Notes: generated by a model not told the origin, from the letters alone. 25,207 nucleotides of DNA from a candidate division WOR-3 bacterium (GCA_039804165.1 JBDRZZ010000024.1:1-25207), one strand, 5' to 3'; shown: positions 5,026 to 24,747, counted from the first letter of the stretch. Numbers and translations: made by a program.

Positions 5026-5499
5026 ATGAATATCAAATTTATCAAGAATTTAATAAATGTATTAGAAAAGAGTAATATAGAAGAGATTGAAATTCAACGC
5101 TTTTGGACAAGAATAAGATTGACAAAGAATAAACAAGAGAAGAGTTCTCTCCCTAAGACAAAAACTTTAATTTCAGAAACAATAGAGGTCAAAGAAAAAG
5201 AAGAAAAGAAAGTTGAAGAAAAGCCAATAAAGGAAGAAGTAATAAAAGAAGATAAAGATCTCCATATTATAAGATCTCCAATGGTTGGAACTTTTTATCA
5301 AGCTCCTTCTCCAGATGCTCCTCCTTATGTGGAGGTTGGGGATGTGGTTAAGAAAGGAGATGTAGTTTGTATCATAGAAGCTATGAAAATAATGAATGAG
5401 ATTGAGTCTGATGTTAGAGGAGAAATTGTTGAAATTTTAGTCTCTAACGAACAGCCTGTAGAATATAATCAACCATTATTTGTTGTGAGGAAATTATAG
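5026..5499 (+). CDS. accB: Biotin carboxyl carrier protein of acetyl-CoA carboxylase
   Basis: It carries biotin between the carboxylase (AccC) and carboxyltransferase during malonyl-CoA formation, the first step of fatty acid synthesis. Its 157 residues are normal for the family. The N-terminal helical segment (1-35) is followed by a Lys/Glu-rich linker (about 36-78) and a biotinyl domain (about 80-157). EAMKIMNE places the biotinylated lysine at K121, and [17 protein letters not shown] is typical of the family. A strong GGAGGAG (5014-5020) precedes the ATG. Its usual partner accC is present but separated by pilT, which is odd. Confidence 0.96.
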
Positions 5500-5501
5500 C
5501 T

Positions 5502-6584
5502 ATGGATATTAAGCCACTTTTAAAGAAAATGATAGAGGTAGAAGCTTCGGATCTCCATCTTAAAGTTGGGATACCCCCAATTTTGAGAATTAATGGGGAA
5601 CTCGTTCCTATGGAGATGAACAAACTTACAAAAGAGGATCTCAGGATAATCGCTTCTTCCCTTATGACAAAGAAACAACAGGAGGCTTTTTTAAGGGAGA
5701 AAGAGGCAGATTTTGGAATTGGAATTCCAGGGATTTCTAGGTTTAGAGTCAATATATACGTTCAAAGAGGAAGTATTGCTCTTGCCATAAGACCTATTTC
5801 AAGAGAAATAAAAACAATTGAAGAGTTAAATTTACCTCCTGTTTTAAATGAGTTAGCTTCTCTACCAAGAGGTTTAATTCTTGTTACAGGAACAACAGGT
5901 TCGGGGAAATCAACAACTTTAGCGTCAATGATTGATCAAATTAATAAGAGTAAAAGAAAGCATATCATTACTATTGAAGATCCAATTGAATATCTCCTTA
6001 TAGATAAAAAGTCTATCATTTCTCAAAGAGAGATTGGAACAGACACTAAAAGCTTTGCTAATTCTCTAAAGTATATCTTGCGTCAAGATCCCGATATCAT
6101 AATGATTGGAGAAATAAGAGATGCAGAAACAATGGAGACAGCTTTAAAAGCAGCAGACACTGGACATCTTGTATTTTCAACACTTCATACTCTTAATGCG
6201 GCAGAGACAATAAATAGGATAATTACATTCTTTCCTCCTTATCAGCATCAGCATATAAGAGTTCTACTATCGAGTGTCTTAAGAGGTATAATTTCTCTCC
6301 GATTGCTTCCTAAAAAAGATGGAACAGGCCGAATTCCTGCTACAGAAATTCTTGTTTCTACTCCAACAATAAGAGAATATTTGCTGGATGAACAAAAGAC
6401 TCCCTTAATTATGGAAGCTATTAGAGAAGGCACAAAATATGGAATGCACTCTTTTGATCAAAGTGTGATGGATTTATATAGGAATGGGATTGTGGATCTT
6501 GAGACTGCTTTAGAGAATGTTAATAATCCAGATGAATTTAAGATGAGACTTAAAGGGATTGAACAGACTTCTAAACGCTGGTAA
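5502..6584 (+). CDS. pilT: Type IV pilus retraction ATPase (PilT/PilU family)
   Basis: A hexameric motor ATPase that drives pilus retraction for twitching motility. It has 360 residues. The N-terminal PAS-like domain begins with EASDLHLKVGIPP. Walker A is GTTGSGKST (130-138). Acidic residues follow in TIEDPIEY, Walker B is DPDIIMIGEIRD (196-207, catalytic E204) and the His box is GHLVFSTLHT (221-230). The C-terminus (IREGTKYGMHSFDQ) resembles PilU-like members as much as classical PilT, so the exact subtype is open. It starts 2 nt after accB and ends 3 nt before accC, so it interrupts the usual accBC pair. MglA and chemosensory genes downstream suggest that its activity is under spatial and sensory control. 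Confidence 0.93.
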   Translation: MDIKPLLKKMIEVEASDLHLKVGIPPILRINGELVPMEMNKLTKEDLRIIASSLMTKKQQEAFLREKEADFGIGIPGISRFRVNIYVQRGSIALAIRPISREIKTIEELNLPPVLNELASLPRGLILVTGTTGSGKSTTLASMIDQINKSKRKHIITIEDPIEYLLIDKKSIISQREIGTDTKSFANSLKYILRQDPDIIMIGEIRDAETMETALKAADTGHLVFSTLHTLNAAETINRIITFFPPYQHQHIRVLLSSVLRGIISLRLLPKKDGTGRIPATEILVSTPTIREYLLDEQKTPLIMEAIREGTKYGMHSFDQSVMDLYRNGIVDLETALENVNNPDEFKMRLKGIEQTSKRW

Positions 6585-6587
6585 GAG

Positions 6588-7934
6588 ATGGAGAAAATCC
6601 TTATCGCTAATAGAGGAGAGATAGCTCTTAGAATAATAAGGGCGGCAAAGGATTTGGGAATTAAAACCGTTGCAGTTTTTTCAGAACCAGATAAGGATTC
6701 ACTTCATGTTAGATTCGCGGATGAGGCAGTTTGTATAGGAGATGGCCCACCTACTGAGAGTTATTTGAATATCTCTAGAATAATTGCAGCTGCAGAAATT
6801 ACTGGAGCAGATGCAATTCATCCCGGATATGGTTTTTTAGCTGAAAATCCTTCTTTTGCAGAAATATGCGAAGAAAATAAATTCATTTTTATTGGTCCTT
6901 CTTCAGAAGCTATAAGAAAAATGGGAGATAAGGCTGAGGCTAAAAAATTTATGAAGAGCGCTGGAGTTCCTGTGACTCCCGGAAGTGAGGGGGTTATTGA
7001 AAATGTAGAAGAAGCTATTTCAGTTGCGAATGAGATTGGTTATCCTATTCTTATAAAGGCTGTCGCTGGAGGTGGAGGAAGAGGAATGAGATTAGCAAGA
7101 AATGAAAAAGAACTCAGAGCAGGTTTTGTAATGGCTCAGTCTGAGTCACAAGCTGCTTTTGGAGACAATAGAGTTTATATAGAGAAGGCAATTGAGAATC
7201 CAAGACATATAGAAATCCAAATCCTTGCAGATTCTTATGGAAATGTTATTCATCTTGGAGAAAGGGAATGTTCCATTCAAAGAAGGCATCAAAAATTACT
7301 TGAAGAAGCTCCTTCTCCTTTTGTCTCTCCCGAGCTAAGGGAAGAGATGGGCGAAGCGGCAAAGAGAGGGGTAAAAGAATTAGGTTATAGGTCTGCAGGA
7401 ACTGTTGAATTTATAGTTAACGAGGATGGCTCTTTCTATTTTATGGAAATGAATACAAGAATTCAGGTAGAACATCCTATAACAGAATTGGTGACAGGAT
7501 TTGACATATTGGCAGAACAGATTAAAATTGCAAATGGTGCTCCTCTTGAGATAAAGGATCAAAGGGAAGTGCAAATTAAAGGCCATGCAATAGAAGTTCG
7601 TATTAACGCCGAAGATCCAAAAGCTTCCTTTGCTCCAAGACCAGGAACGATTCATCATCTATATCTTCCAGGAGGAGCAGGGGTAAGAGTGGATTCTCAC
7701 ATCTATGAGGGTTATACAGTTCCCCCTTATTATGACTCTCTTTTGCTTAAATTAATTACCTACGGTAAAGATAGAGAAGAGAGTAGAAGGAGGATGCTTA
7801 GAGCTATAGACGAATTTACAATTAGGGGGGTTCCTACTACTGCCCCTCTTTTTAAGGAAATCTTAAATCATCCAGATTTTATTAAGGGAAATATAAATAC
7901 GAATTTTCTTAAAAAGCTAAAGATATTAGAATAG
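6588..7934 (+). CDS. accC: Biotin carboxylase subunit of acetyl-CoA carboxylase
   Basis: It uses ATP and bicarbonate to carboxylate biotin on AccB. Its 448 residues are standard. The N-terminal domain starts with the family hallmark [14 protein letters not shown]. The ATP-grasp core has the glycine-rich loop [12 protein letters not shown] (157-168), and the catalytic cluster [12 protein letters not shown] contains E287 and R291. The C-terminal domain includes RINAEDP and RPGTI. AccA/AccD are not in the window. It is co-transcribed with accB despite the intervening pilT. No missing catalytic residue was seen. Confidence 0.97.
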
Positions 7935-7963
7935 GATTTTCGACATAGAGGTTAGTTAATTTA

Positions 7964-8560
7964 ATGGCTGTAATTAAATATGCATCAAGAGAAATTGTTT
8001 GTAAGATTGTTTATTATGGACCTGGAAGGGCGGGAAAGACTACCAATGTTAAATACATTTTTTCAAAAATTCCAGAGGACAGAAAATCTGATATTATTTC
8101 AATGGCAACTAAGCAAGATAGGACATTATTCTTTGACTTTATGCCAGTAGATCTTGGTACTTTTAAAAACTTCAATACAAGGCTACAAGTGTATACGGTT
8201 CCAGGACAGGTTATCTATGATTCTACAAGGAAACTGGTTTTAAGAGGAGCTGATGGAGTTGTATTTGTTGCTGATTCTCTTAGAAGTAGAATGGAAGATA
8301 ATATATGGAGTTGGGAAAATTTGATTGAGAATCTGAAAGAGAATAATATCAATATCGAAGAAATTCCTATAATTATAGAATATAATAAGAGAGATTTAGA
8401 AGATATAGCCTCTATAGAAGAATTGGAAGCGCAATTGAATCCTGATCATTATCCTTCTTTTCCTTCTATTGCTACAACCGGAGAAGGGATAATAGAGGTT
8501 TTTAAGGCTATTGGAGTTGAAGTTTTAAAGTCTGTTAAGATTAAACTTGGAGAAGAATAA
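7964..8560 (+). CDS. mglA: MglA-type Ras-like GTPase (motility polarity)
   Basis: A small GTPase of the family that sets the leading pole in gliding and twitching bacteria such as Myxococcus and Thermus. Its 198 residues are typical. The P-loop is GPGRAGKTT (19-27). Switch 2 carries TVPGQ (78-82), a hallmark of bacterial MglA in place of the eukaryotic DxxG. The specificity motif NKRD is at 141-144, and LRGADGVVFVADS (93-105) is near-identical to the family pattern. The ATG is 29 nt after accC with a weak AGAGG. No MglB/roadblock GAP gene is in the window. The next gene abuts directly and encodes an unusual ATPase, a plausible partner. Confidence 0.93.
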   Translation: MAVIKYASREIVCKIVYYGPGRAGKTTNVKYIFSKIPEDRKSDIISMATKQDRTLFFDFMPVDLGTFKNFNTRLQVYTVPGQVIYDSTRKLVLRGADGVVFVADSLRSRMEDNIWSWENLIENLKENNINIEEIPIIIEYNKRDLEDIASIEELEAQLNPDHYPSFPSIATTGEGIIEVFKAIGVEVLKSVKIKLGEE

Positions 8561-9745
8561 TTGAAAGAGATAATTTATTCTAAATTTAATATTGCAGCTA
8601 TTAAGGCTATAAGAAAAGCTCTAATGGGAAGGGAGGTAAATCCTCTTTTTATATATGGACCTTCGGGTTCAGGTAAGAGTTTTCTTGTTGAAAATATGCA
8701 AGAGGAATTTAAAGGTAAATCAAAACTTGTCGAGGCAGAGGATATTAATCCTAGTCTTTTAGAAGAGTGTAAAGAAATTAATTTACTTATAATTGAAGAT
8801 CTTGAGACTATACCTACCACAAAAGTTATAATGGATATTCTTTTTGATTTACTTAGAGAGTTTACGGAAAATGAGAATAAACAAATAGTCCTTACAGCAA
8901 ATCGTCACCCAAAAGGTTTGAATTTGCCTGAAAGAATAATGGCTAAGATTGAAATTGGTGTTACGGTTCCCATAAAGGAGTTTGATCCTTTTTCTAAGAA
9001 AAAAGTTATTGAAATCCTTGGTAAAGGTTTGCCTAAGACCTTCTTAGCAAAGCTTGAGAAAAAAGACATAAGGACAATGAGTCAAGCGATAGGAGCTGTA
9101 AAAAAAGTTAGGCTATTTGGATATGTCCCTGATGAGAGGGATGAATTAAGAGAAGAAAAGGAGAAAGAAAAAGAAGAGGTAAGAAAGAAAGAGGAAATAA
9201 AAAAACAAGTGGGAGAATTTGAGAAATTTATTCAAGAGGTAAAAAAGGGATTTCCTGAAGAGATTGTTGAGACAGAAAAGGCAGAGATTTTGCGAGATGA
9301 GTATAGGGCTAAGATGTTTGTTTGGGAAATGAAAGGTTTTAACACCGATAGGATAAAAAAAGTTATAGATAAAGAGTTGGATTTACTAACCGGAGAATTT
9401 GTTTCTTATACAACAGACATTCAGAGATTGATAGAGTTACAGAAAAGGTATGGTATGCTAGCAATAGATAATCTTATAAAGAATGGGATTCTTAAGGAAG
9501 AAGAGAAGAAAGAAATAGAAGCTAGTCTTTTTAATCCCGATAAGGTTGAATGGCTTACAAAAACAATTGAGAAATTAGAAGAAGAAGAGGATAGTTTGGC
9601 GGAGAAGGTTCATAGAAGGCTTGAGATTTCAAGAAGGAAGTCTCTTGGGGGAAGGAAACTTTCGAAAGAGAAAATGGAGAATTTGGTTAAAATATTATCT
9701 ATTAACTTACAAGATGAAAGTTTTAGGCTTTTAGAGGATTTTTAA
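8561..9745 (+). CDS. DnaA/Hda-like AAA+ ATPase with a coiled-coil C-terminal region
   Basis: A 394-residue protein of unknown role. Residues 1-185 resemble the DnaA domain III/Hda AAA+ core: Walker A GPSGSGKS (33-40), Walker B NLLIIEDLE (74-82), a sensor-like LTANRHPKGL (111-120) and LPERIMAKIEIG (122-133), which matches the DnaA arginine-containing segment. The DnaA helix-turn-helix domain IV is absent, so it is not a replication initiator. Residues 193-230 are a highly charged Lys/Glu coiled coil. The rest is helical with a WEMKGFNTDRIKK motif (255-267) and no family I recognise. The start is TTG at 8561, directly after the mglA stop, with GGAG at 8549-8552. Adjacency to mglA suggests a scaffold or localisation factor for motility (inference). 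Confidence 0.75.
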   Translation: MKEIIYSKFNIAAIKAIRKALMGREVNPLFIYGPSGSGKSFLVENMQEEFKGKSKLVEAEDINPSLLEECKEINLLIIEDLETIPTTKVIMDILFDLLREFTENENKQIVLTANRHPKGLNLPERIMAKIEIGVTVPIKEFDPFSKKKVIEILGKGLPKTFLAKLEKKDIRTMSQAIGAVKKVRLFGYVPDERDELREEKEKEKEEVRKKEEIKKQVGEFEKFIQEVKKGFPEEIVETEKAEILRDEYRAKMFVWEMKGFNTDRIKKVIDKELDLLTGEFVSYTTDIQRLIELQKRYGMLAIDNLIKNGILKEEEKKEIEASLFNPDKVEWLTKTIEKLEEEEDSLAEKVHRRLEISRRKSLGGRKLSKEKMENLVKILSINLQDESFRLLEDF

Positions 9746-9746
9746 T

Positions 9747-11321
9747 ATGCCTATAAAAGGTTCTCTTTCAGACATTTCAATTATGGATCTCTTACAAATG
9801 CTTCATTTGGGGAGTAAGACGGGAGAACTTGCTATAACAAACGAAGAGAATCTTGTATATCTTTACTTAGAAGGAGGGAATCTTACCCATATTCATTGGA
9901 TGAATAGGAAAGATAGATTAGGGTCTATTCTTTTAGAGAATGGAGTAATTAATGAAGAACAGTTAAAAGAAGCTTTAGAGCTCCAAAAAGAAAAAAAGAA
10001 TGTTCCTCTTGGAGAAATTCTTTTAGAATTAAATTTAATAGATAAAGGAACATTAGCAGAATATATAAAGAAACAGATGAGAGACACCATAATAGAGCTA
10101 TCAGGATGGACAAAAGGATATTTTGTTTTTGAAGCACGAGAATCCTGTCAAACCGAAGGTTTACCAGTTTCTATTAGGATAGATGATGTTCTCCTTGAAT
10201 CTGCCGCATTTAAAGATGAATTGGCTGCCTCTTCTTTGCCGGATAAGAATTCAATACTCGTGATTTCTCCTGAGTTTAAGGATCTTTCTACTCTAACAGA
10301 AGAAGAGAGAATGGTTTTAAATAAAGTAGATGGAGAGAAAAATCTTTCTTCTCTTATAAGTGTTATTCCTATAGAAGAGTTCAAAACATTAAAAATTCTT
10401 TCTGATTTGTTGAAGAAAGGGGTTTTGAAGGAGTTAAAGGTTGAAAAGGAGTCTCTTATAAAAGAGAGAGAAAAAATAGAAGAGCATAGGAACTTAGGAG
10501 TTGCTTTTGTTAAGATAGGAATGTTAAATGAGGCTTTGAGAGAGTTTAATAGGATTCTTGAATTAACTCCAAATGATTCTGAAGCCCTATTTTACAAAGG
10601 AATAATAAATTTTAAGATGGGTGAACTTGATGAAGCTGAGAGGTTATTTAAAGAGAGCTTAAAGTCTAATATTAGAGCTTCAACGTTGAATAATCTTTAT
10701 TTAATAAATGAGCTTAAAGGAAATACTGAGGTTGCTTTAGATTATTTATCTCAAGCTTTAAAAATAGAAGAAAGTAATGAGAAAATTCTTCTAAATAAGG
10801 CCATTATATATTTAAAACTCAAAAAATATGACGAGGCTCTGGATATATTGAATGGAATTAAAGTTAAGAATCCTTATATAGAGTTTTATCGCAGTTACAT
10901 TATGATAAGAAAAGAGAATATTGAAGAAGCAATAAATATTTTAGAGGAAGGTCTATCAATGGCACCAGAATTTGGAGAATATTTCTATAATCTTGGTAAA
11001 TTGTATGAGTTTACAGGAGATGAGAAAAAGGCCGCCGAGATTTACCAAGAAGGATTAAAGTCGGATCCTAATTGTTTGGTTCTTTCTAAAGCACTAATTG
11101 ATTATTATTATAAAAATAAACTCTTTGATCTTTGTGAGGTAAAAATTGAAACTCTTATATCTGGAGGGGTGCAAGATTGGGAATTGTATTTTAAGAAAGG
11201 GAATATCCTTTATCAAAGGGGAAAAGCAAAAGAGGCGATTGAGTTATGGAAGAAAGCATTGGAATTGGATCCAGAAAATAAATTGATAAAGAGAACTATT
11301 GAACTTGCAAAGAAGGCATGA
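9747..11321 (+). CDS. DUF4388 (PATAN-type) protein with C-terminal TPR repeats
   Basis: It has 524 residues. The N-terminal part (about 1-130) has the DUF4388/PATAN layout: GSLSDISIMDLLQMLHLGSKTGELAI, then DRLGSILLENGVINEEQLKEAL and a GYFVFEA strand. A middle segment (about 165-245) looks winged-helix-like. From about 250 to the end there are seven or so TPR-type helical pairs (for example ALREFNRILELTPNDSEALF). DUF4388/PATAN domains occur in proteins tied to type IV pilus regulation and surface motility, for example PATAN response regulators in cyanobacteria. It is probably a cytoplasmic adaptor linking MglA, pilus motors or the chemosensory complex. It starts 1 nt after the DnaA-like gene and overlaps cheR by 4 nt. 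Confidence 0.8.
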   Translation: MPIKGSLSDISIMDLLQMLHLGSKTGELAITNEENLVYLYLEGGNLTHIHWMNRKDRLGSILLENGVINEEQLKEALELQKEKKNVPLGEILLELNLIDKGTLAEYIKKQMRDTIIELSGWTKGYFVFEARESCQTEGLPVSIRIDDVLLESAAFKDELAASSLPDKNSILVISPEFKDLSTLTEEERMVLNKVDGEKNLSSLISVIPIEEFKTLKILSDLLKKGVLKELKVEKESLIKEREKIEEHRNLGVAFVKIGMLNEALREFNRILELTPNDSEALFYKGIINFKMGELDEAERLFKESLKSNIRASTLNNLYLINELKGNTEVALDYLSQALKIEESNEKILLNKAIIYLKLKKYDEALDILNGIKVKNPYIEFYRSYIMIRKENIEEAINILEEGLSMAPEFGEYFYNLGKLYEFTGDEKKAAEIYQEGLKSDPNCLVLSKALIDYYYKNKLFDLCEVKIETLISGGVQDWELYFKKGNILYQRGKAKEAIELWKKALELDPENKLIKRTIELAKKA

Positions 11322-12106
11322 ATAAATTTGAGAATAGAGAAATTGAAGTAGTTTTTACAGCAATAAAAGATTTTTTAGATTTTGAACCGGAGAATTATAA
11401 GGAAAAACCTTTATTGAGAAGAATTCGTTATAGAATGAGGAAAGTGGGCGTTGAGAATTGGGAAGATTATGCTGAGTTAATTAAAACTAATGATGGAGAA
11501 AGAGAAAATCTTAAAAAAGCTCTAACTATAAATATTACGAGTTTCTTTAGAGATAAAAGTGTGTTTGAGACTCTTAAAAGTAAAATTCTTCCTTCTATTA
11601 AAGAACCTTCAATTTGGAGTGCAGGTTGTGCTAATGGTGCAGAACCTTATGCTATTGCAATTCTTTGTAAGGAGCTTAATCTTAAATGCTCAATTTTAGG
11701 AACAGATATTGATGAAGATTCTATAGAAATGGCTAGAAAAGGAGAATATGAGGAAATTGAACTTTTTGAGTTACCAATAAATTATAAAATAAAATATTTT
11801 GAAAAAATTGAAGGTAAATATAGAATCATTCCAGAAATTAAAAGCCTTGTAGAATATCAGGTTCTTGATTTAAAAGATGCAGATTTTGAAAATAAGTTTG
11901 ATTTAGTGGTTTGTAGAAATGTTCTTATATACCTTAAAAAGGAGTTTCAGGAAAAGATTCTTTTGACTTTCTGGAAAGCCTTAAGAGGAGATGGATTTTT
12001 AGTTCTTGGAAAGGTTGAGATGTTACCTGAGAGGTTAAGAGGTTTCTTCCATACAGTGGATTTAAGAGATAGAATTTATGTTAAGGGAAAAGGGATTGTT
12101 AGTTGA
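11318..12106 (+). CDS. cheR: Chemoreceptor glutamate methyltransferase CheR
   Basis: It methylates receptor glutamates using S-adenosylmethionine for sensory adaptation. It has 262 residues. The N-terminal helical domain includes RRIRYRMRKVG (34-44). The catalytic region has NITSFFRD (72-79), the SAM loop SAGCANGAEPYAIAI (101-115), the acidic strand end GTDID (128-132) and DLVVCRNVLIYL (195-206). The SAM loop differs from the common GCSTGEEPYS by an alanine in place of the first glutamate. Translation is coupled to the upstream DUF4388 gene by an ATGA overlap. The receptor substrate is presumably the MCP at 15802. Confidence 0.95.
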   Translation: MNKFENREIEVVFTAIKDFLDFEPENYKEKPLLRRIRYRMRKVGVENWEDYAELIKTNDGERENLKKALTINITSFFRDKSVFETLKSKILPSIKEPSIWSAGCANGAEPYAIAILCKELNLKCSILGTDIDEDSIEMARKGEYEEIELFELPINYKIKYFEKIEGKYRIIPEIKSLVEYQVLDLKDADFENKFDLVVCRNVLIYLKKEFQEKILLTFWKALRGDGFLVLGKVEMLPERLRGFFHTVDLRDRIYVKGKGIVS

Positions 12107-12560
12107 AGCTGGAAGTTTTAAGATAGCTTGTCCTCCAATGGTTCTTACAATAAATGGACTTGGTTCTTGTGTAGCAGTTGCTTTATACGATGTGAAGAAA
12201 AATTTAGGTGGAATGATTCATTTTATTCTTCCTGAAAATCCTGGGGATAAGAAGAAAGAAAAATATGCGGATTCTGGGATTCCTCTACTTTTAAATAAAT
12301 TAATAGAGGCTAAAGGGGAGAAGGAGAATATTGTTGCAAAAATGGTGGGAGGAGCAGTAATGTTTCCTAAATTTATAGAAGATGCAGAGAATTCTATAGG
12401 GAAGAGAAATGTAAGGAAAGCAAGAGAAATTCTTGAGAACCTTGGAATTAAAATTGTGGGAGAGGATACTGGGGGAGATTATGGAAGATCTGTGAGTTTT
12501 GAGTTAAGAAGTGGAAAGGTTTTCATAAGTTCATATAAAAATGGAGATAAGGTAATTTGA
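12078..12560 (+). CDS. cheD: Chemoreceptor glutamine deamidase CheD
   Basis: It converts specific receptor glutamines to glutamates and in some bacteria partners CheC. It has 160 residues from this ATG. The catalytic cysteine is C31 in GLGSCVAVALYD, the histidine is H48 in GGMIHFILPE, and T24 precedes the GLGSC motif. The ATG at 12078 overlaps cheR by 29 nt. A TTG at 12096, with AAGGG upstream, would shorten the overlap to 11 nt and fits the family's N-terminus almost as well, so the start is uncertain. No cheC or cheX is present in the window. Confidence 0.93.
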   Translation: MLREKGLLVEAGSFKIACPPMVLTINGLGSCVAVALYDVKKNLGGMIHFILPENPGDKKKEKYADSGIPLLLNKLIEAKGEKENIVAKMVGGAVMFPKFIEDAENSIGKRNVRKAREILENLGIKIVGEDTGGDYGRSVSFELRSGKVFISSYKNGDKVI

Positions 12561-13576
12561 TTGACGTTTTAGTTGTTGAAGATTCAGCTTTTATGAGAAA
12601 AGTTCTCTGCGAAATTTTAAATAGAGATCCTGAAATTAATGTTATTGATACGGCGGCAAATGGAATTGAAGGGGTTAGGAAAAGTATTCTACTTAAGCCA
12701 GATGTGATAACAATGGATGTTGAGATGCCTCATATGGATGGAATTGAAGCTGTAAAAGCAATAATGAGAGAAGCTCCAACTCCTATAATAATGATCTCTG
12801 CTTATACAAAAAAAGGAGCCCAGAAGACAATAGAAGCTCTTGTGGCTGGAGCTATTGATTTTGTTGAGAAACCTGGGGGGCCAATTTCTCTCAATTTAAG
12901 AGAAGTAAAGGATGAGATAATTAGAAAAGTGAAGATAGCCTCAGAGGTTAATCTAAAAGGAAGTAGAAAGAAAGGGGAAAAGATTAAATCAAATAAGGAA
13001 ATAAAAGGGGAGACTTTGGTTATAATAGCAGCTTCTGCAGGGGGGCCTAAAGTTATAAATTCAATATTTGAAAAGTTGCCCTCCAACTTCCCTGCTCCTA
13101 TAATTGTGGTTCAGCATATGCCAAAACTTTTTACAAAAGTTTTTGCGGAAAGGTTAAATGAAATTTCAGATTTGTCTGTTGTTGAAGGGAGGAATGGCGA
13201 TCTTCTTGAAAAGGGCAAAGCTTATATTGCTCCTGGTGATTTTCACCTTGAAATTACAGAGACAAGGAGGATAAAATTAAGCAAGGCTCCTCCAATTCAT
13301 GGAGTAAGACCTTCTGCTGATGTGACGATGAATTCTGCGGCAGAAAAATTTAATGGTAACATTGTTGGCGTTATTCTTTCTGGAATGGGGAAAGATGGAG
13401 CTATAGGGATAAGGAAGATTAGAAAAAGGGGAGGGTTCATAATTGCGCAAGACGAAGAGACTTCTATTGTTTTTGGAATGCCTAAGGTGGCTATTGAGAG
13501 CGGTTGCGTAGATTTAGTTCTACCATATTATGAAATTGCAGATAAATTAATTGAATTGGTCAAAGGAGATGTTTGA
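12557..13576 (+). CDS. cheB: Chemotaxis response regulator methylesterase CheB
   Basis: It removes methyl groups from receptors when phosphorylated. It has 339 residues. The receiver domain (1-115) has D54 as phosphoacceptor (VITMDVEMPHMDG) and K105 late. A basic linker follows (about 130-150). The methylesterase domain has S160 (AASAGGP), H187 (VVQHMP) and D280 (GMGKDG), the full catalytic triad. The start is TTG at 12557, overlapping the cheD stop by 4 nt (TTGA), giving IDVLVVEDSAFMRK. CheB needs a CheA kinase for activation, yet no cheA lies in this window. Confidence 0.95.
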   Translation: MIDVLVVEDSAFMRKVLCEILNRDPEINVIDTAANGIEGVRKSILLKPDVITMDVEMPHMDGIEAVKAIMREAPTPIIMISAYTKKGAQKTIEALVAGAIDFVEKPGGPISLNLREVKDEIIRKVKIASEVNLKGSRKKGEKIKSNKEIKGETLVIIAASAGGPKVINSIFEKLPSNFPAPIIVVQHMPKLFTKVFAERLNEISDLSVVEGRNGDLLEKGKAYIAPGDFHLEITETRRIKLSKAPPIHGVRPSADVTMNSAAEKFNGNIVGVILSGMGKDGAIGIRKIRKRGGFIIAQDEETSIVFGMPKVAIESGCVDLVLPYYEIADKLIELVKGDV

Positions 13577-14369
13577 AAAAATAAAAAATTTATTATTAGA
13601 GATTGAAAAAACCGGAGTAAAGGAAGAAAAGGAAGAGAGATTAAGGATGATCCTTTCTACGATAAAAACGATTAAACAAGAGCTCCTTGAGATAGAGAAA
13701 AAAGCGAAAGAGTTATTGGGAGAGAAAGAAAATAACTTTAAGGGAATGGTAAAAGAGACTATAGATTCAACTGATTTTATTAGGAAGATTCAATCGGCGA
13801 GAGTTAATATTACAACTTTGATAGATAAGGGATGGAATCTAATAGTTAGCGGAAAATATAAAGAGGCAGTGGAGACTCTTAATAAGGCAAGAAAAATGGA
13901 TTCTGAAAATACGAAAGTTTATAACCTCTTAGGTTGGGCTTATATAAATCTTGAGGAGTACGATAAAGCTTCTCTTATTTTTCAGGAAGTTTTAAAAATT
14001 GATCCTCATAACGAGATGGCCCAGGTGAATCTTGGCTATATTAGTTATAAAAAAGGTTTATATGGAGAAGCAATTGAGAAGCTTTCTTTAATAGAGAAAA
14101 ACGCAAAGGATAAACAAGCAGTTCTTTACGCCTTATTTTATCTTGGAGTTATGTATTACGAAAGAGAAATGCTTGATGATTCTATAGAATTTCTTAATAA
14201 AGCAATAAGTCTTGGACCAAATTTATATGAAGCTTATTATTATTTAGGGAAAGCTTATCAGAAGAAAGGCTTACCTAATCTTTGTTCTCAAATTTGGGAG
14301 AAGTTGATTAGTGTTAATAAATATAATGTCTGGGCACAAAAAGCGAGGCGTGAATTAGATGGTAAATGA
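13569..14369 (+). CDS. TPR-repeat protein with N-terminal coiled coil
   Basis: About 266 residues from the chosen ATG. Residues 1-65 are charged and helical (KEERLRMILSTIKTIKQELLEI), probably a coiled coil. From about 88 to the end there are four or five TPR units (for example AVETLNKARKMDSENTKVYN and SIEFLNKAISLGPNLYEAYY). It has no catalytic motif, no signal peptide and no membrane segment. The start is ambiguous: AAAGGAG abuts the ATG at 13569 with no spacer, and a TTG at 13551 would add six residues without an SD. It overlaps cheB by 8 nt and the next ATPase gene by 11 nt. It is likely a protein-protein adaptor of the motility cluster, with unknown partners. Confidence 0.8.
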   Translation: MFEKIKNLLLEIEKTGVKEEKEERLRMILSTIKTIKQELLEIEKKAKELLGEKENNFKGMVKETIDSTDFIRKIQSARVNITTLIDKGWNLIVSGKYKEAVETLNKARKMDSENTKVYNLLGWAYINLEEYDKASLIFQEVLKIDPHNEMAQVNLGYISYKKGLYGEAIEKLSLIEKNAKDKQAVLYALFYLGVMYYEREMLDDSIEFLNKAISLGPNLYEAYYYLGKAYQKKGLPNLCSQIWEKLISVNKYNVWAQKARRELDGK

Positions 14370-15159
14370 GTATTGGGGACTTTCTAAAAAACCTTTCTCT
14401 AATACTCCAGATTTAAATTTTATGTTTAATAGCAATGGATTTGAGGAAGGTTATGCAAGACTTCTTTATAATATAACTGAGATAAAAGGAGGGCTCACTC
14501 TTATTACAGGAGATGTTGGTTGTGGCAAAACTTATCTTGCAAATGCATTAAGAGAAAGTTTAAAAAAGCAAAATGCTCTCCCTTTTATAATAGGAAACCC
14601 AAAATTATCTTCAAATCAATTGATAAAAGTAATTCTGCAAAAAATAGGTATTGAAGAAATTCCAAGGTTTAAACTTGCAATATTAAACCTTTTAGAGAAA
14701 AAACTTGAAGAACTTAATAATAAGGGGATTATAGTTGTAGCTTTGATTGATGAAGCCCAGATTCTTTCCTTAGATGCTCTTAGAGAGGTGCGTCTTCTTC
14801 TTAACCTGGAGACTTCTCAGGAGAAGCTATTACATATTGTTTTGCTTGGTCAACCAGAATTAAAAAGAATAATAGATAGGGTTCCCCAACTAAAGCAAAG
14901 AGTTAACGTTCGTTTTCATCTTGAGCCTCTTTCGAAAGAAGAAACCAAAGCTTATGTTATTCATAGGCTTAAAGTGGCAGGAAGCGAAAGAGAGATATTT
15001 GAGGAAAGTAGCTTGGATAAGCTATATGAGGTGAGTAAGGGAATTCCAAGAGTTATAAATAATATTGCTCAAAATGCTCTTTTTGTGGCTGCGACCGAGA
15101 ATTTGAAGAAGATCCCTCCTGAGATAATAGAGGCTGTTGCTTTTGATTTGGAGGTCTAG
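14359..15159 (+). CDS. ExeA/GspA-like AAA+ ATPase
   Basis: A 266-residue ATPase of the ExeA (GspA) type, whose better-known members help assemble secretion or pilus machinery by acting with cell-wall-binding partners. The N-terminus EYWGLSKKPFSNTPDLNFMF matches the family's YWGL-kPF-tPD signature. Walker A is GDVGCGKT, Walker B is VVALIDEAQ, a sensor LLGQPEL follows, and the C-terminal lid contains GIPRVINNIAQNA. The usual ExeA C-terminal membrane anchor and peptidoglycan-binding domain are missing, so this is the bare soluble ATPase. Related ATPases also serve transposons (TniB), but no transposase is near. The start overlaps the TPR gene by 11 nt. Confidence 0.87.
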   Translation: MVNEYWGLSKKPFSNTPDLNFMFNSNGFEEGYARLLYNITEIKGGLTLITGDVGCGKTYLANALRESLKKQNALPFIIGNPKLSSNQLIKVILQKIGIEEIPRFKLAILNLLEKKLEELNNKGIIVVALIDEAQILSLDALREVRLLLNLETSQEKLLHIVLLGQPELKRIIDRVPQLKQRVNVRFHLEPLSKEETKAYVIHRLKVAGSEREIFEESSLDKLYEVSKGIPRVINNIAQNALFVAATENLKKIPPEIIEAVAFDLEV

Positions 15160-15818
15160 TGAAAAAAAAGAAGATAAGCTTTAAAAAAATATTATCACAA
15201 GAGAAATTAGAGCTTCCTAAAGAGAAATCTGAAAGAATAAAGCCGGAAAGGACTAAATTCGAAAGAAAGTTTTTTTCTGAAGGAAAGCTTATTAAAAAGA
15301 AGGATAAGGTTGAAGAAAAAGAAGTTCTTGAACCCTTAGTAAAAAAGAAAATTGAGAAAAAGAAAGAAGAGATAATGATTGTGAGAATAGGAGAGGAATA
15401 TTATGGAATTCCACTTTCAGATGTAGAGGAAATAAAAAAGGATTTAAGATTAACTAGCACCTCTCAGTCAGAGTTTCTTATTGGCATTGCAGAATTGAGA
15501 GACTCAATTATTCCAGTAGTAAATTCTTGGCAAATCTTAGGGTTAAAGATGGAAGGCGAGAGATTAAAAGATGCTTTTCCGGTTGTTGTTTTAAGAGTTT
15601 CTAACGAACTTGTGGGATTAGAAGTTTCTGAGATTGTAGAAATTGTGGAAATTTATGAGAATGAAATTTTGCCTTTACCAGATGTTTTTCCTCCTAATCT
15701 TTTCTCTGGCGGATATTCTTATAAATCCAAAATTGTGGGTGTTCTAAACATTGGCAATTTATTGAAAGGGAAACAAATTCAATCATTTAAGGAGAAATTA
15801 GATGAAACTATCAAATAA
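15159..15818 (+). CDS. cheW: CheW-type adaptor with basic N-terminal extension
   Basis: A 219-residue protein. Residues 1-72 are extremely lysine/glutamate rich and probably disordered. Residues about 73-208 form a CheW domain: MIVRIGEEYYGIPLSDVEEI, then FLIGIAELRDSIIPVVNSWQILGL, VVVLRVSNELVGLEVSEIVEI and the closing IVGVLNIGNLL. CheW couples receptors to the CheA kinase. The start is GTG at 15159 with GGAGG at 15150-15154. It overlaps the ATPase stop by 1 nt and the receptor gene by 17 nt. The long basic tail is not typical of CheW and may bind another partner or acidic lipids (inference). Confidence 0.9.
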   Translation: MKKKKISFKKILSQEKLELPKEKSERIKPERTKFERKFFSEGKLIKKKDKVEEKEVLEPLVKKKIEKKKEEIMIVRIGEEYYGIPLSDVEEIKKDLRLTSTSQSEFLIGIAELRDSIIPVVNSWQILGLKMEGERLKDAFPVVVLRVSNELVGLEVSEIVEIVEIYENEILPLPDVFPPNLFSGGYSYKSKIVGVLNIGNLLKGKQIQSFKEKLDETIK

Positions 15819-17457
15819 AATTGCTTTAATTTCTACTGTTTTGAGTATTTTAATTGGAACTCCAATATTATTTTCTTCTCTTTATTGGTTTCTTTCTCCT
15901 GAGAATTATAAAGATATATTTTTAAATCTCTTGAGTGCTACTTTATTTCTTTCCTTTGTCTTTTACTTTATAGAAGAGAATAAATTAAAAAAAGCAATTG
16001 TTATTGGAGATGGAGAGATTCTTTATAGCATTCCAATGATATATGGTTTTCATATATTTTTAAATTTTGGAGTATTCCTTTTTCTATTTTATTTGATTTT
16101 AAGATCTCTTTTTGGGTTTCCATCTTTAGAGGAAATCTTTAAGGCTCTTTTTTCTTTCCTCTCTATAGGAGGGTTAGAATTCAGTATAATTTACTTTTTG
16201 AGTTTTTCTTTGCTTTCTCCTAAGTTCAAAGAACTCAAAGATTTTAAATTTAAAGGTCTTAATTTGGGTAAGAAGATCTCTTTTTTTGGAAGTTCTGTTA
16301 TTATTTTTTCTTTCTTTGTTGGTTATATTGCCTCAAAAAGTCCTTTTTGTTTAATTTATCTTATCTTTGCTCCTTTTCTCCTTTGGGTTTTAATAAAAAT
16401 TGTGAGAGAACCTATTTTAGAGATTCGGGAGAAACTTCAAAATTTTACAAGAGATTTTTCTGTGATTGAGAGAAAAGTTATTTCTGGAGATGAGATAGAG
16501 GAGATAGACGATTCTGTTACTCTTTTTATTAAGGATAGAAATTCTTTGATTTTTAGATTAAAGGATGCCTATGAGAAGATTAATACTCAAGCAGAAGCAA
16601 TACTTACCGGTATAGAAAGATTAGCTTCTTCTACAAGTAAAGTTAATAAATTTATAAATGAAATCTTGAGTATTAAGGATGAAAGTGGAGGAGTAATTAA
16701 TTCTGTTCATAAGAAAAACGAAGGAATTTATTCTCTTTCTACCGAGATAGAATCTCAGATTAAGACTTTTATTCATTCATCTAAAGATTCTATTGATCTT
16801 GCAAACTCTACAGAATTGAGAACTGAAGAGAAGGTAGAGAGAATCACTGCTTTCGTTAAGAAGGTTAAGGAAGGTTCAAGGGTTTTAGAAGAGCTCTCCA
16901 AAGCTTTTGAGGAAATTAAAGAAATTAATTTTCTTATGGAACAGATCTCCGAAGATACAAATTTGCTTGCCCTAAATGCTTCAATTGAAGCTGTAAGGAA
17001 GGAGGGAGAGGAAAGCAAGGGTTTTGCTGTGATTGCCGAGGAGATTCGAAAATTGTCAAATGACTCTGCTTCTTATTTGGAAAAAATAAGAGAGAATATA
17101 AAAAGGATGGATGAGGCTGTGAATTCTATAGTTGCCACAACAGAAGAGTCAATTTCTATCTTTGAAGAGACTAAATCGATAATTCAGAAGACAAAAGAAG
17201 ATTTAAAGAAGATCTCGGAATCAATCGTGATTAACACAAACATGGCAGAGCAAATTTCAGGGATTCTAAAGGAAGGATACGAATCTACAGATGAGATAAG
17301 GAAGTTATCCAATAAATTATCCCAATTAAATGACAAACAAGTAGAAAATGCATTATTAGTTTTAAGGGAAATGGAGGAGGAGACAGCTTCAATAGAGGAA
17401 GCTAGAATGAGGATTCAGACATTAATTTCGCTTACAGAGAAAATTAAGGAGCTTTAA
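15802..17457 (+). CDS. Methyl-accepting chemotaxis protein with a multi-TM N-terminus
   Basis: A 551-residue receptor. About six hydrophobic segments (near 8-30, 38-58, 78-101, 116-138, 160-177 and 180-201) occupy the first 200 residues, with only short loops, so no large extracellular sensor domain exists; sensing may be within the membrane. A HAMP-like or linker stretch follows, then a long helical signalling domain. The hairpin tip (about 378-410) reads DTNLLALNASIEAVRKEGEE then KGFAVIAEEIRKLS, close to consensus but one residue longer. AGGAG precedes the ATG by 6 nt. It overlaps cheW. It should be the substrate of the upstream CheR, CheB and CheD. Confidence 0.92.
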   Translation: MKLSNKIALISTVLSILIGTPILFSSLYWFLSPENYKDIFLNLLSATLFLSFVFYFIEENKLKKAIVIGDGEILYSIPMIYGFHIFLNFGVFLFLFYLILRSLFGFPSLEEIFKALFSFLSIGGLEFSIIYFLSFSLLSPKFKELKDFKFKGLNLGKKISFFGSSVIIFSFFVGYIASKSPFCLIYLIFAPFLLWVLIKIVREPILEIREKLQNFTRDFSVIERKVISGDEIEEIDDSVTLFIKDRNSLIFRLKDAYEKINTQAEAILTGIERLASSTSKVNKFINEILSIKDESGGVINSVHKKNEGIYSLSTEIESQIKTFIHSSKDSIDLANSTELRTEEKVERITAFVKKVKEGSRVLEELSKAFEEIKEINFLMEQISEDTNLLALNASIEAVRKEGEESKGFAVIAEEIRKLSNDSASYLEKIRENIKRMDEAVNSIVATTEESISIFEETKSIIQKTKEDLKKISESIVINTNMAEQISGILKEGYESTDEIRKLSNKLSQLNDKQVENALLVLREMEEETASIEEARMRIQTLISLTEKIKEL

Positions 17458-17464
17458 AGGGATA

Positions 17465-17893
17465 TTGGAGAAACTGCTGATATTCTCTATAGATAATATT
17501 TTTTTCGGCGTTAACATTAATGAAGTTGAAAGTTTAGGTAGGTTAAAGAGGATAAGAAGGATTTCTAAAATTCCAAAGTGGATCGGGGGATTTGTAGAAA
17601 AGGGAGGAAGAAAAGTGCCTTTTGTTAAAATTTGGGAAATTCTAAGGTTAAATTCTCAAGAAAGAGGGGTTTTACTTTTCCCAAAATACATAGATTATTG
17701 TGCTTTTCTTATTTCTGGAGTGAAAGGAATTTATGAGCTCGAAATTGATAGGGAAGCAACCGACTTTTATTCTTTATCTTATTTAAAGGGATTTGGAATC
17801 TTTCAAGATAAAGTAGTCCTTCAGGTTAATTTAGAAGGGCTTTTAAAAGAGGAGCAAAAGAGAGAAATAAAGAGATTAAATGAAAAGGGATAG
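17465..17893 (+). CDS. Short divergent CheW-like protein
   Basis: 142 residues with the CheW layout: LLIFSIDNIFFGVNINEVESL, then IPKWIGGFVEKGGRKVPFVKIWEIL, a middle strand pair around YCAFLISGVKGIYELEI and a closing VVLQVNLEGLL. Sequence similarity to CheW is weak and several usual positions differ, so it may be a CheW that lost part of its receptor- or kinase-binding surface. The start is TTG at 17465, 7 nt after the receptor stop, with AAAGGG just upstream. It overlaps pgpA by 14 nt. It is the second CheW-type protein of the cluster. Confidence 0.72.
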   Translation: MEKLLIFSIDNIFFGVNINEVESLGRLKRIRRISKIPKWIGGFVEKGGRKVPFVKIWEILRLNSQERGVLLFPKYIDYCAFLISGVKGIYELEIDREATDFYSLSYLKGFGIFQDKVVLQVNLEGLLKEEQKREIKRLNEKG

Positions 17894-23271: not shown

Positions 23272-24747
23272 CTACTCAATGTCAAAGAATCCTATCCAGC
23301 TATAAATATTTCTTTCTGGGATTTTTATTTCCTCTGGATTAAATATTATCAGATTCCCACCGCAAAGAGGACAACTTTCCATTTTACCTTCTAATGGAGG
23401 TAAAGTCCTTTTATTTTCTTTTACTTCTTTAGCGCACCTGAAGCCAAATATATTCTTTTGTGAAGTCTCGCCCGTTGATTCCTCATGCGATGCTATATAA
23501 TGAAGCGCGGGCAATCCTAAGAGTTCACAGGAAACAGCCCAAGAGCCTCCTCTAAGATATTTATAAGAAGGAGCCTGAGGCAAGGGCTCATTTACCCATT
23601 CAAACACATTTCCCACCATTTGATAACAACCATACGGGCTTTTCCCTTCGGGATATTTATCAACAGCAACAGGTCCATAATTTCCAGACTCTGCGGTATT
23701 GCAAAAACTAATATTATACTCATCACCCCAAGGATAAAGTCTTCCATCGGGGCCTCTTGCAGCTTTTTCCCATTCATCACCGGTTGGCAATCTCAGGCCT
23801 GCCCATTCACAATAAGCTAAAGCATCCTTGTATGAAACATTAGTGACAGGGAAATTAGCTTCCTCTGGTGGATATGGAGGGTCTTTAAATCCCCAATCTT
23901 TCCAATGCGAAGGAATTTTTCTGTATCCAGTCTCTTTAATGAATCGATAATACTGCTCATTTGTAACAGGATAAATGTCTATCCAGAAAGAAGGAAGTTC
24001 CAATTTTTGATATTTTTCTTCGTCCAAGAGTTCTTTTATATCTGGTCTATTATATTTTCTCAATATTTTTCTTTTTTGTTCTTCATTTAAACCTTTATAG
24101 AATACCCCACCAGGCACTTTTACCATTTTGTGACCATGATACTCTATGAGGGCTTCCTCTTCTTCTCTTTCTATTCTCTTGAGAACCACAAATCCACAAG
24201 ACACGCATCTTAAATTTTCTTTTATTTTTACTTCGCCTTCTTTTATCTTTTTTAATAACTTGATCAATTCTTCTCTTAGTTCTCTAAAAGATTGATATCT
24301 TTCAGATGGCGATCTTTTTAAACATTTTTCCAATATTCTTTTAAGTTCAATCGGTATATCCTGGTAAAAATCTAAGTCATTTTCTACAAAAGGTATTTTT
24401 CCTCCTAACAATTCATACATTGTTACGCCAAAAGAATAAATATCTGATGAAGGCATAACAGATTCATAGTTTAGCTCTTGTTCTGGAGACTTATACGGTG
24501 AAGTTCCCGGTGTTATAATATGGCGGCCGAACCCCGAAGTCAAGCTTGATGGTTGAACAAATTTAGCAAGACCGAAATCGATAATTTTTATTTGATTTTT
24601 CTTTGTAATGAGTATATTATTTGGTTTTATATCTCTATGAACAAATGCTATGGCAGGATTTTTGGGATTCATCTGGTTGAATGCTTTAAGCAATTCTTCA
24701 CTTATGTACATCATTCCATTACAGAATGATATTCCAATATGGATCAC
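23272..24747 (-). CDS. Kinase C-lobe plus FGE-sulfatase domain (downstream half of a TAG-split gene)
   Basis: 491 residues if it starts at the GTG at 24747. Residues 1-170 are the Ser/Thr kinase C-lobe: HRDIKPNN (37-44), IIDFGLAKF (55-63) and SPYKSPEQ (83-90), with catalytic D39 and metal-binding D57 intact. CVSCG (181-185) is a Cys knuckle. Residues about 209-442 are a formylglycine-generating-enzyme/C-type-lectin-fold domain: MVKVPGGVFYKG, IDIYPVTNEQYYRFI, LRLPTGDEWEKAARG, GNVFEW, LRGGSW and FGFRCA. The FGE active-site cysteine pair is not seen, so it is likely a binding domain rather than an enzyme. A second knuckle, CPLCGG (459-464), closes the protein. The frame continues upstream without shift through one TAG into the kinase N-lobe. 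Alone, this half lacks the ATP-binding loop and would be an inactive kinase. Confidence 0.8.
   Translation of the reverse strand: MIHIGISFCNGMMYISEELLKAFNQMNPKNPAIAFVHRDIKPNNILITKKNQIKIIDFGLAKFVQPSSLTSGFGRHIITPGTSPYKSPEQELNYESVMPSSDIYSFGVTMYELLGGKIPFVENDLDFYQDIPIELKRILEKCLKRSPSERYQSFRELREELIKLLKKIKEGEVKIKENLRCVSCGFVVLKRIEREEEEALIEYHGHKMVKVPGGVFYKGLNEEQKRKILRKYNRPDIKELLDEEKYQKLELPSFWIDIYPVTNEQYYRFIKETGYRKIPSHWKDWGFKDPPYPPEEANFPVTNVSYKDALAYCEWAGLRLPTGDEWEKAARGPDGRLYPWGDEYNISFCNTAESGNYGPVAVDKYPEGKSPYGCYQMVGNVFEWVNEPLPQAPSYKYLRGGSWAVSCELLGLPALHYIASHEESTGETSQKNIFGFRCAKEVKENKRTLPPLEGKMESCPLCGGNLIIFNPEEIKIPERNIYSWIGFFDIE

Follow-up and report, generated by a model that had tools for sequence, protein, structure and literature searches.

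Frz-type chemosensory systems are recognized by two fusions, that of CheA with a receiver (FrzE) and that of CheR with TPRs (FrzF). In Myxococcus xanthus, Frz together with MglA/MglB/RomR and SgmX represents one of the closest counterparts of the locus described here: its CheA-type pathway controls MglA/MglB and, through them, type IV pili. The TPR protein SgmX is bound by MglA-GTP and in turn localizes PilB, which MglB prevents at the lagging pole (PMC7519303); in a STRING search, SgmX was found to co-occur with PATAN as well as TPR proteins (PMC11580455). As cited in PMC7519303, the MglA of Thermus thermophilus matters for unipolar pilus placement. Regarding gene organization, MglA genes are occasionally found near PATAN genes, the mglA of Myxococcus not being located near the genes of its partners (PMC4316618). 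Chemosensory control of PilB/PilT-driven pili is also known from Pil-Chp in Pseudomonas and Pix/Tax in cyanobacteria, and PATAN regulators bind PilB in Synechocystis (PMC10519157, PMC9090330). Here, we report on a locus from a candidate division WOR-3 bacterium which shares features with each of these systems and of which no description was found in the open-access literature.

The window, i.e., the whole stretch of 25,207 nucleotides analyzed (G000:C24:1-25207), belongs to a genome of 1.96 Mb in 49 contigs, 95% complete, whose inventories were drawn from genome-wide searches and about 0.9 Mb of sequence stretches examined. Gene calling and domain searches in the window recovered all the genes named in an earlier note, which had claimed a mostly overlapping run from pilT to cheW2. 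They lie on the same strand, in the order described, between positions 5502 and 17893, with accC between pilT and mglA (accB, upstream of this run, is listed as well):

5026-5499, accB, 2 bases upstream of pilT
5502-6584, + strand, pilT, type IV pilus retraction ATPase (PF00437, 9.8e-48)
6588-7934, + strand, accC, biotin carboxylase (PF02785/PF02786/PF00289)
7964-8560, + strand, mglA, Ras-like GTPase with the MglA TVPGQ motif (M. xanthus MglA structures, E=4e-63; P-loop, TVPGQ, NKRD)
8561-9745, + strand, DnaA-like AAA+ ATPase (Bac_DnaA, 3.5e-14; profile against DnaA structures, 6e-60)
9747-11321, + strand, PATAN (DUF4388)-TPR protein (DUF4388, 2e-29)
11318-12106, + strand, cheR, receptor methyltransferase (PF01739, 8.7e-49)
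12078-12560, + strand, cheD, receptor deamidase (PF03975, 8.5e-29; Cys and His motifs GSC/MIH)
12557-13576, + strand, cheB, receiver and methylesterase (PF01339, 3.8e-66, and PF00072; catalytic motifs intact)
13551-14369, + strand, TPR protein, hereafter TPR2 (TPR models)
14359-15159, + strand, ExeA-like ATPase of the ExeA/XrtA-associated AAA type (AAA_22, 2e-20; TIGR03015, 214.7 bits, below the cut-off of 324.5)
15159-15818, + strand, cheW1, CheW domain with a charged N-terminal extension (PF01584, 9.7e-19)
15802-17457, + strand, membrane chemoreceptor MCP1, six predicted hydrophobic segments and an MCP signalling domain (PF00015, 4.3e-24; hydropathy)
17465-17893, + strand, cheW2, divergent CheW (PF01584, 8.5e-10)

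Intergenic distances in the run go from +29 (accC/mglA) down to -29 (cheR/cheD), and all seven junctions from the PATAN-TPR gene through the receptor gene are overlapping, the size of the cheR/cheD and cheB/TPR2 overlaps being possibly owed in part to starts having been set mechanically at the first start codon. Downstream, pgpA overlaps cheW2 and the gene run hence extends past 17893. Because gaps do not exceed 29 bases and most junctions overlap, the transcription unit probably spans accB to at least cinA. Elsewhere in the window, the protein encoded at positions 23272-24747 on the minus strand combines a Ser/Thr kinase with a formylglycine-enzyme-type domain; the N-lobe of the kinase lies upstream in the same frame, cut off by one in-frame stop.

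The absence of cheA, cheY, cheC and mglB, which the earlier note had also pointed out, is true of the window itself, but each of these genes has a copy in the same genome. Searched for genome-wide, cheA, cheY and an mglB-like gene were located together on contig C2 (locus L025):

6854-10024, soluble receptor with an SBP_bac_5 domain
10021-10425, cheW
10438-10803, cheY
10809-12596, cheA
12577-13194, cheC

After cheC come, in order, a TPR protein of 879 aa, a PATAN-TPR protein of 338 aa, a TPR-Roadblock protein of 231 aa, two Roadblock proteins of 111 and 154 aa, and TamB. This CheA is the only one found by the whole-genome search, and the genome contains four CheW domains, two in the window and two on C2. 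With one CheA, three CheW proteins, three MCPs and CheY, the parts of a chemosensory pathway are complete, and a motif scan established that the catalytic motifs of CheA, CheY, CheB, CheD and CheC are intact, including both CheC sites ([DS]xxxExxNx22P). The C2 cluster has no cheR, cheB or cheD, and the window has cheR/cheD/cheB without cheA/cheY/cheC. The cluster is therefore the complement of the window block and not a complete, unrelated che operon to which these components would belong.

Two further receptor observations were made on this contig. The soluble receptor, a protein of 1056 aa conserved across many WOR-3 CheA loci, combines in one chain two MCP tip-like hairpins followed by an oligopeptide-binding SBP_bac_5 domain, with no membrane segment; a periplasmic-type binding domain is thus apparently used in the cytoplasm. 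A few kb past the CheA locus (L043:6107-7750), the genome encodes its third receptor, which matches HAMP weakly.

Regarding MglB, the sole curated match of the 154-aa Roadblock protein is the Thermus MglB model NF052242 (4e-13, 49.7 bits, below the 200-bit cut-off) and its best eight PDB matches are all MglB (5e-8). Its Roadblock domain being nearest to MglB, we consider it a putative MglB-like protein. This match recalls the MglA/MglB pair of T. thermophilus, from which our system differs by its che linkage, none having been met for Thermus in the open-access literature. A second Roadblock(mglB)-mglA pair, whose MglA is 54% identical, is located about 25 kb from the CheA locus (L142:4833-5911).

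In other lineages, both gene sets form one run. In G017, from another WOR-3 lineage, the order is cheY-cheA-cheC-TPR-PATAN-Roadblock x3-DnaA-like-PATAN-TPR-cheR-cheD-cheB, while in G060, from Edwardsbacteria, it reads cheW-cheY-cheA-cheC-TPR-PATAN-Roadblock x3-mglA-DnaA-like-PATAN-TPR-cheR-cheD-cheB-TPR-cheW-receptor-receptor, with two small extra genes. Among other Edwardsbacteria, G061 has the G060 gene set with more inserts, G063, G065 and G068 keep the G060 core over the stretch examined, and the DnaA-like protein is encoded in all ten genomes examined; in G060 and G061, mglA adjoins the MglB-like gene. Because both halves are contiguous in G017 and Edwardsbacteria, the two loci are probably parts of one system, for which the term "CheA-less" is not supported, its single CheA as well as CheY, CheC, CheW and the MglB-like Roadblock being encoded on C2.

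The gene order, far from being unique to this genome, recurs with minor losses in the family (G001-G005) and in order- and class-level relatives (G007-G009), and its core is found in much of the phylum and in Edwardsbacteria. Each of these relatives whose cheA region was examined also has the cheA locus, with the same CheA cluster. In 41 of 44 loci, the gene before the DnaA-like gene is mglA or MglB-like, and in 41 of the 43 scorable loci the PATAN-TPR gene comes after it, so this order is far beyond chance. The PATAN-TPR gene is followed by cheR in 38/42 loci, and cheB and TPR2 are adjacent in 25/37 scorable loci, TPR2 being the cheB neighbour in most lineages. This recurring order supports the proposal that the adaptation enzymes, MglA, the PATAN protein and the DnaA-like ATPase form one functional module. 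The run includes the ExeA-like ATPase and accB/accC in certain lineages only: the ExeA-like gene is at the locus in class-level relatives only, and accC, an interloper, is in the run in class-level relatives and in L055/L056 and absent there from L037, L074, L129 and Edwardsbacteria. In G003 (L027), TPR2, the ExeA-like gene and MCP1 are missing at the locus.

Several loci show particular arrangements. In L055/L056, a soluble-receptor gene adjoins the mglA locus. In family f18 (G034 and G058; L101:11878-13698 and L100), a 606-aa protein without Pfam match follows cheR, in the place expected for cheD/cheB. In L063 (G062, from a third lineage, labelled Gemmatimonadetes), the gene of the long TPR protein is directly followed by that of a 697-aa DnaA-like protein, and cheW-cheY-cheA-cheC are on another contig (L106). 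Additional candidates were discarded: the conserved gene found between accC and mglA in relatives is thiE, a housekeeping gene; neighbours of the block in other WOR-3 genomes look like a small membrane protein, a DHH phosphoesterase and an inositol monophosphatase and not like signalling genes; a loss of the che part as a unit in L061 is not a clean case, since a CheA match is still present in that genome.

It is probable, in our opinion, that the window block is the adaptation and output half of one chemosensory pathway split over two loci, which would control type IV pili by means of MglA/MglB, PATAN and TPR proteins, and the signal most likely runs via CheA and CheY. The genome encodes two PilB-like proteins (both with MshEN), four PilT-like proteins and a pilMNO-secretin operon; with PilB, PilM, PilN and the secretin all present, it possesses the type IV pilus machinery. 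A link of the block to type IV pili is supported by gene co-occurrence. With DnaA-like and PilM presence classes assigned by hand from match tables (match extent, frame length), a canonical PilM of about 350 aa was found in 24/28 genomes with the DnaA-like gene vs 2/32 without (n=60; Fisher 1.6e-10, shared ancestry ignored), and cheA likewise in 26/28 WOR-3 genomes with the gene vs 2/32 without (n=60; Fisher 2e-12, shared ancestry ignored). FliG was above cut-off in three of the 60 genomes, each without CheA and without the module, and in none of the 28 DnaA-like genomes. MglA was present in 28/28 module genomes and in 12 genomes without the DnaA-like gene; because of the latter and of the second mglB-mglA pair in the window's genome, the assignment of the MglA partner rests on synteny. 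One WOR-3 genome without CheA or DnaA-like module contains four tandem MglA genes (G045:C2:208594-211541).

A single chemosensory pathway might instead have an output other than type IV pili, such as gliding, adhesion or gene regulation, pilT being a bystander among accB/accC/thiE. Such an output would fit pilT being flanked by accB and accC in the class of the window, the existence of four PilT-like genes in the genome and the four DnaA-like genomes in which a canonical PilM was not found (G007, G008, G009 and G038). However, pilT directly precedes mglA, with no accC in between, in L037, L060, L074, L076, L078 and L129, and in G020, from one WOR-3 family, the pilMNOPQ genes (pilM-pilN-pilO-x-pilQ) are found a few genes upstream of pilT-mglA-DnaA-like-PATAN-TPR-cheRDB. 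Together with the strong association between the DnaA-like gene and canonical PilM, and with PATAN and MglA being known pilus regulators (PMC10519157, PMC7519303), this makes a non-pilus output unlikely.

The earlier note proposed a membrane-sensing switch acting on pilus retraction; read as truly CheA-less, its model has the receptor and CheW address MglA directly, by way of the two ATPases. The window without cheA and the direct adjacency of ATPase and mglA genes are in line with this model, as is G012, which keeps the DnaA-like, PATAN-TPR, TPR2, MglA and PilM genes with no CheA. However, cheR/cheD/cheB are likewise missing at the G012 locus, CheA, CheY and CheC are encoded in the window's own genome and in one run with the block in G017 and Edwardsbacteria, and the active sites of CheA, CheB, CheY and CheC are intact, leaving such a switch highly improbable. 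The G012 pattern rather suggests that the DnaA-like, PATAN-TPR, TPR2, MglA and PilM proteins form an output core and the che genes its input, and, since G012 keeps the former without CheA, that part of the block is able to work without chemosensing. Least probable of all is operon hitch-hiking of functionally separate che and mglA/ATPase genes in slowly rearranging small genomes, as accB, accC, thiE, pgpA, cinA and recA are likewise conserved around the block but change between lineages while the core order stays, including in a second phylum and in lineages whose flanking genes are quite different, and as DnaA-like presence tracks cheA.

To return to the split pathway acting on pili, its likeness to M. 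xanthus Frz/MglA/SgmX extends to a TPR effector protein, a soluble receptor and more than one CheW-type protein. The CheA consists of a single Hpt, P2, dimer, ATPase and terminal CheW domains, with no fused receiver, and CheR, with 262 aa, has no TPR, so that neither hallmark of Frz is found. In contrast to Frz, the WOR-3 system also has a separate cheY, both CheC and CheD, a DnaA-derived ATPase and a PATAN-TPR protein. In Myxococcus, mglA is away from the genes of its partners (PMC4316618), whereas Edwardsbacteria have their che and mgl genes at one locus. The system would work like Frz plus MglAB yet is not a Frz system, because its CheA is without receiver, its CheR without TPRs, and CheC and CheD are present. 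With cyanobacterial Pix/Tax, it shares PATAN domains, which in cyanobacterial regulators bind PilB (PMC10519157, PMC9090330). Unlike in Pil-Chp and Pix/Tax, PATAN is borne here by a TPR protein carrying a nested MshEN motif instead of by a receiver, the CheA contains a single Hpt and an MglA/Roadblock layer is added.

While MglA matches M. xanthus MglA structures over its full length (residues 1-192) and has the TVPGQ motif, the DnaA-like protein matches only domain III of DnaA in the Bac_DnaA search, in the profile against DnaA structures and in a Foldseek search with its AlphaFold model (pLDDT 85). Like DnaA and Hda, it has the AAA+ domain III fold and Walker motifs, the Walker A lysine being kept in 38 of 42 sequences; the window copy has K129 where 27/42 have arginine. 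Unlike them, it is devoid of DnaA domain IV (no DNA-binding helix-turn-helix was found in the protein), possesses a new helical domain and carries two AAA+ copies in most of the distant relatives, the second being absent from the window's family and G017. With domain IV missing from its sequence, this protein does not appear to be a DnaA replication initiator; a separate DnaA-type protein of 441-453 aa is encoded on contig C3 of the same genome. The helical domain, at about residues 240-362 after the first AAA+ domain, contains invariant W255-xMKGF and FxP motifs (W255, M257, K258, G259, F260, L290, F324 and P326 in a 42-sequence alignment) and had no Pfam or NCBIfam match, Foldseek matches following the AAA+ part. 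The DnaA-like protein ends with an acidic-aromatic tail recurrent in orthologues (RLLEDF, RLIEEY, ELIEENY, RIFEDY). It resembles a docking peptide, and no similar tail was seen by eye on other module proteins.

Regarding the PATAN-TPR protein, an MshEN-type motif is nested inside its PATAN domain (residues 57-110). NF053729 matches it with 54.3 bits against a cut-off of 38, and matches 38/39 orthologues; the first published 24-residue MshEN motif is exact at residues 57-80 and the second is degenerate (P for R, N for G), one or more relaxed published motifs being found in only 21/39 orthologues. In the AlphaFold model, the insert superposes on c-di-GMP-bound MshE 5htl (57 columns, rmsd 1.7 A, prob 1.00) and also on Thermus PilF structures, with weak Foldseek E-values (0.06 and above), since the insert makes up little of the chain; the PATAN fold beyond it gave no significant match in structure searches. 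Two GGDEF proteins were found in the sampled 46% of the genome. The PATAN-TPR protein is a probable c-di-GMP receptor.

From the computed gene content, motifs, linkage, co-occurrence and domain make-up, we infer how CheY could be coupled to MglA, which role the ATPase could have and that the output would be the pilus. The six-segment MCP of the window and the soluble SBP_bac_5 MCP of C2 would act via the CheW proteins on the single CheA, which would phosphorylate CheY, with CheC dephosphorylating it and CheR, CheD and CheB tuning receptor methylation. The output would be the MglA GTPase, controlled by the MglB-like Roadblock proteins, whose cycle with MglA CheY-phosphate may alter. The DnaA-derived AAA+ protein may provide an ATP-dependent oligomeric platform and, with MglA-GTP, the PATAN-TPR protein and the long C2 TPR protein, would decide where or when PilB and PilT run the pilus. 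More tentatively, and with slightly less than even confidence, we propose that this AAA+ protein is a dedicated core part of a pathway of ancient origin that links chemosensing, a Ras-like GTPase and pili in WOR-3 and Edwardsbacteria. At the pilus machine, it would bring CheA signalling together with MglA and with c-di-GMP (the latter through PATAN-MshEN-TPR), and the output of CheA would go via MglA and not straight to a motor.

What is new here is one component family, the DnaA-like AAA+ proteins, the rest being a variant of the Frz-plus-MglAB kind. While Frz and MglA/MglB of Myxococcus have been tied together by genetics and cell biology, with mglA apart, two phyla group here the CheA, Roadblock, MglA, PATAN, TPR and adaptation genes. 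These grouped genes constitute a ready parts list for the step from CheA to MglA, in which a new AAA+ component is named and a probable c-di-GMP sensor is placed inside the PATAN protein. Finally, they suggest that uncultured bacteria lacking flagella commonly direct chemosensing to their pili via a Ras-like GTPase.
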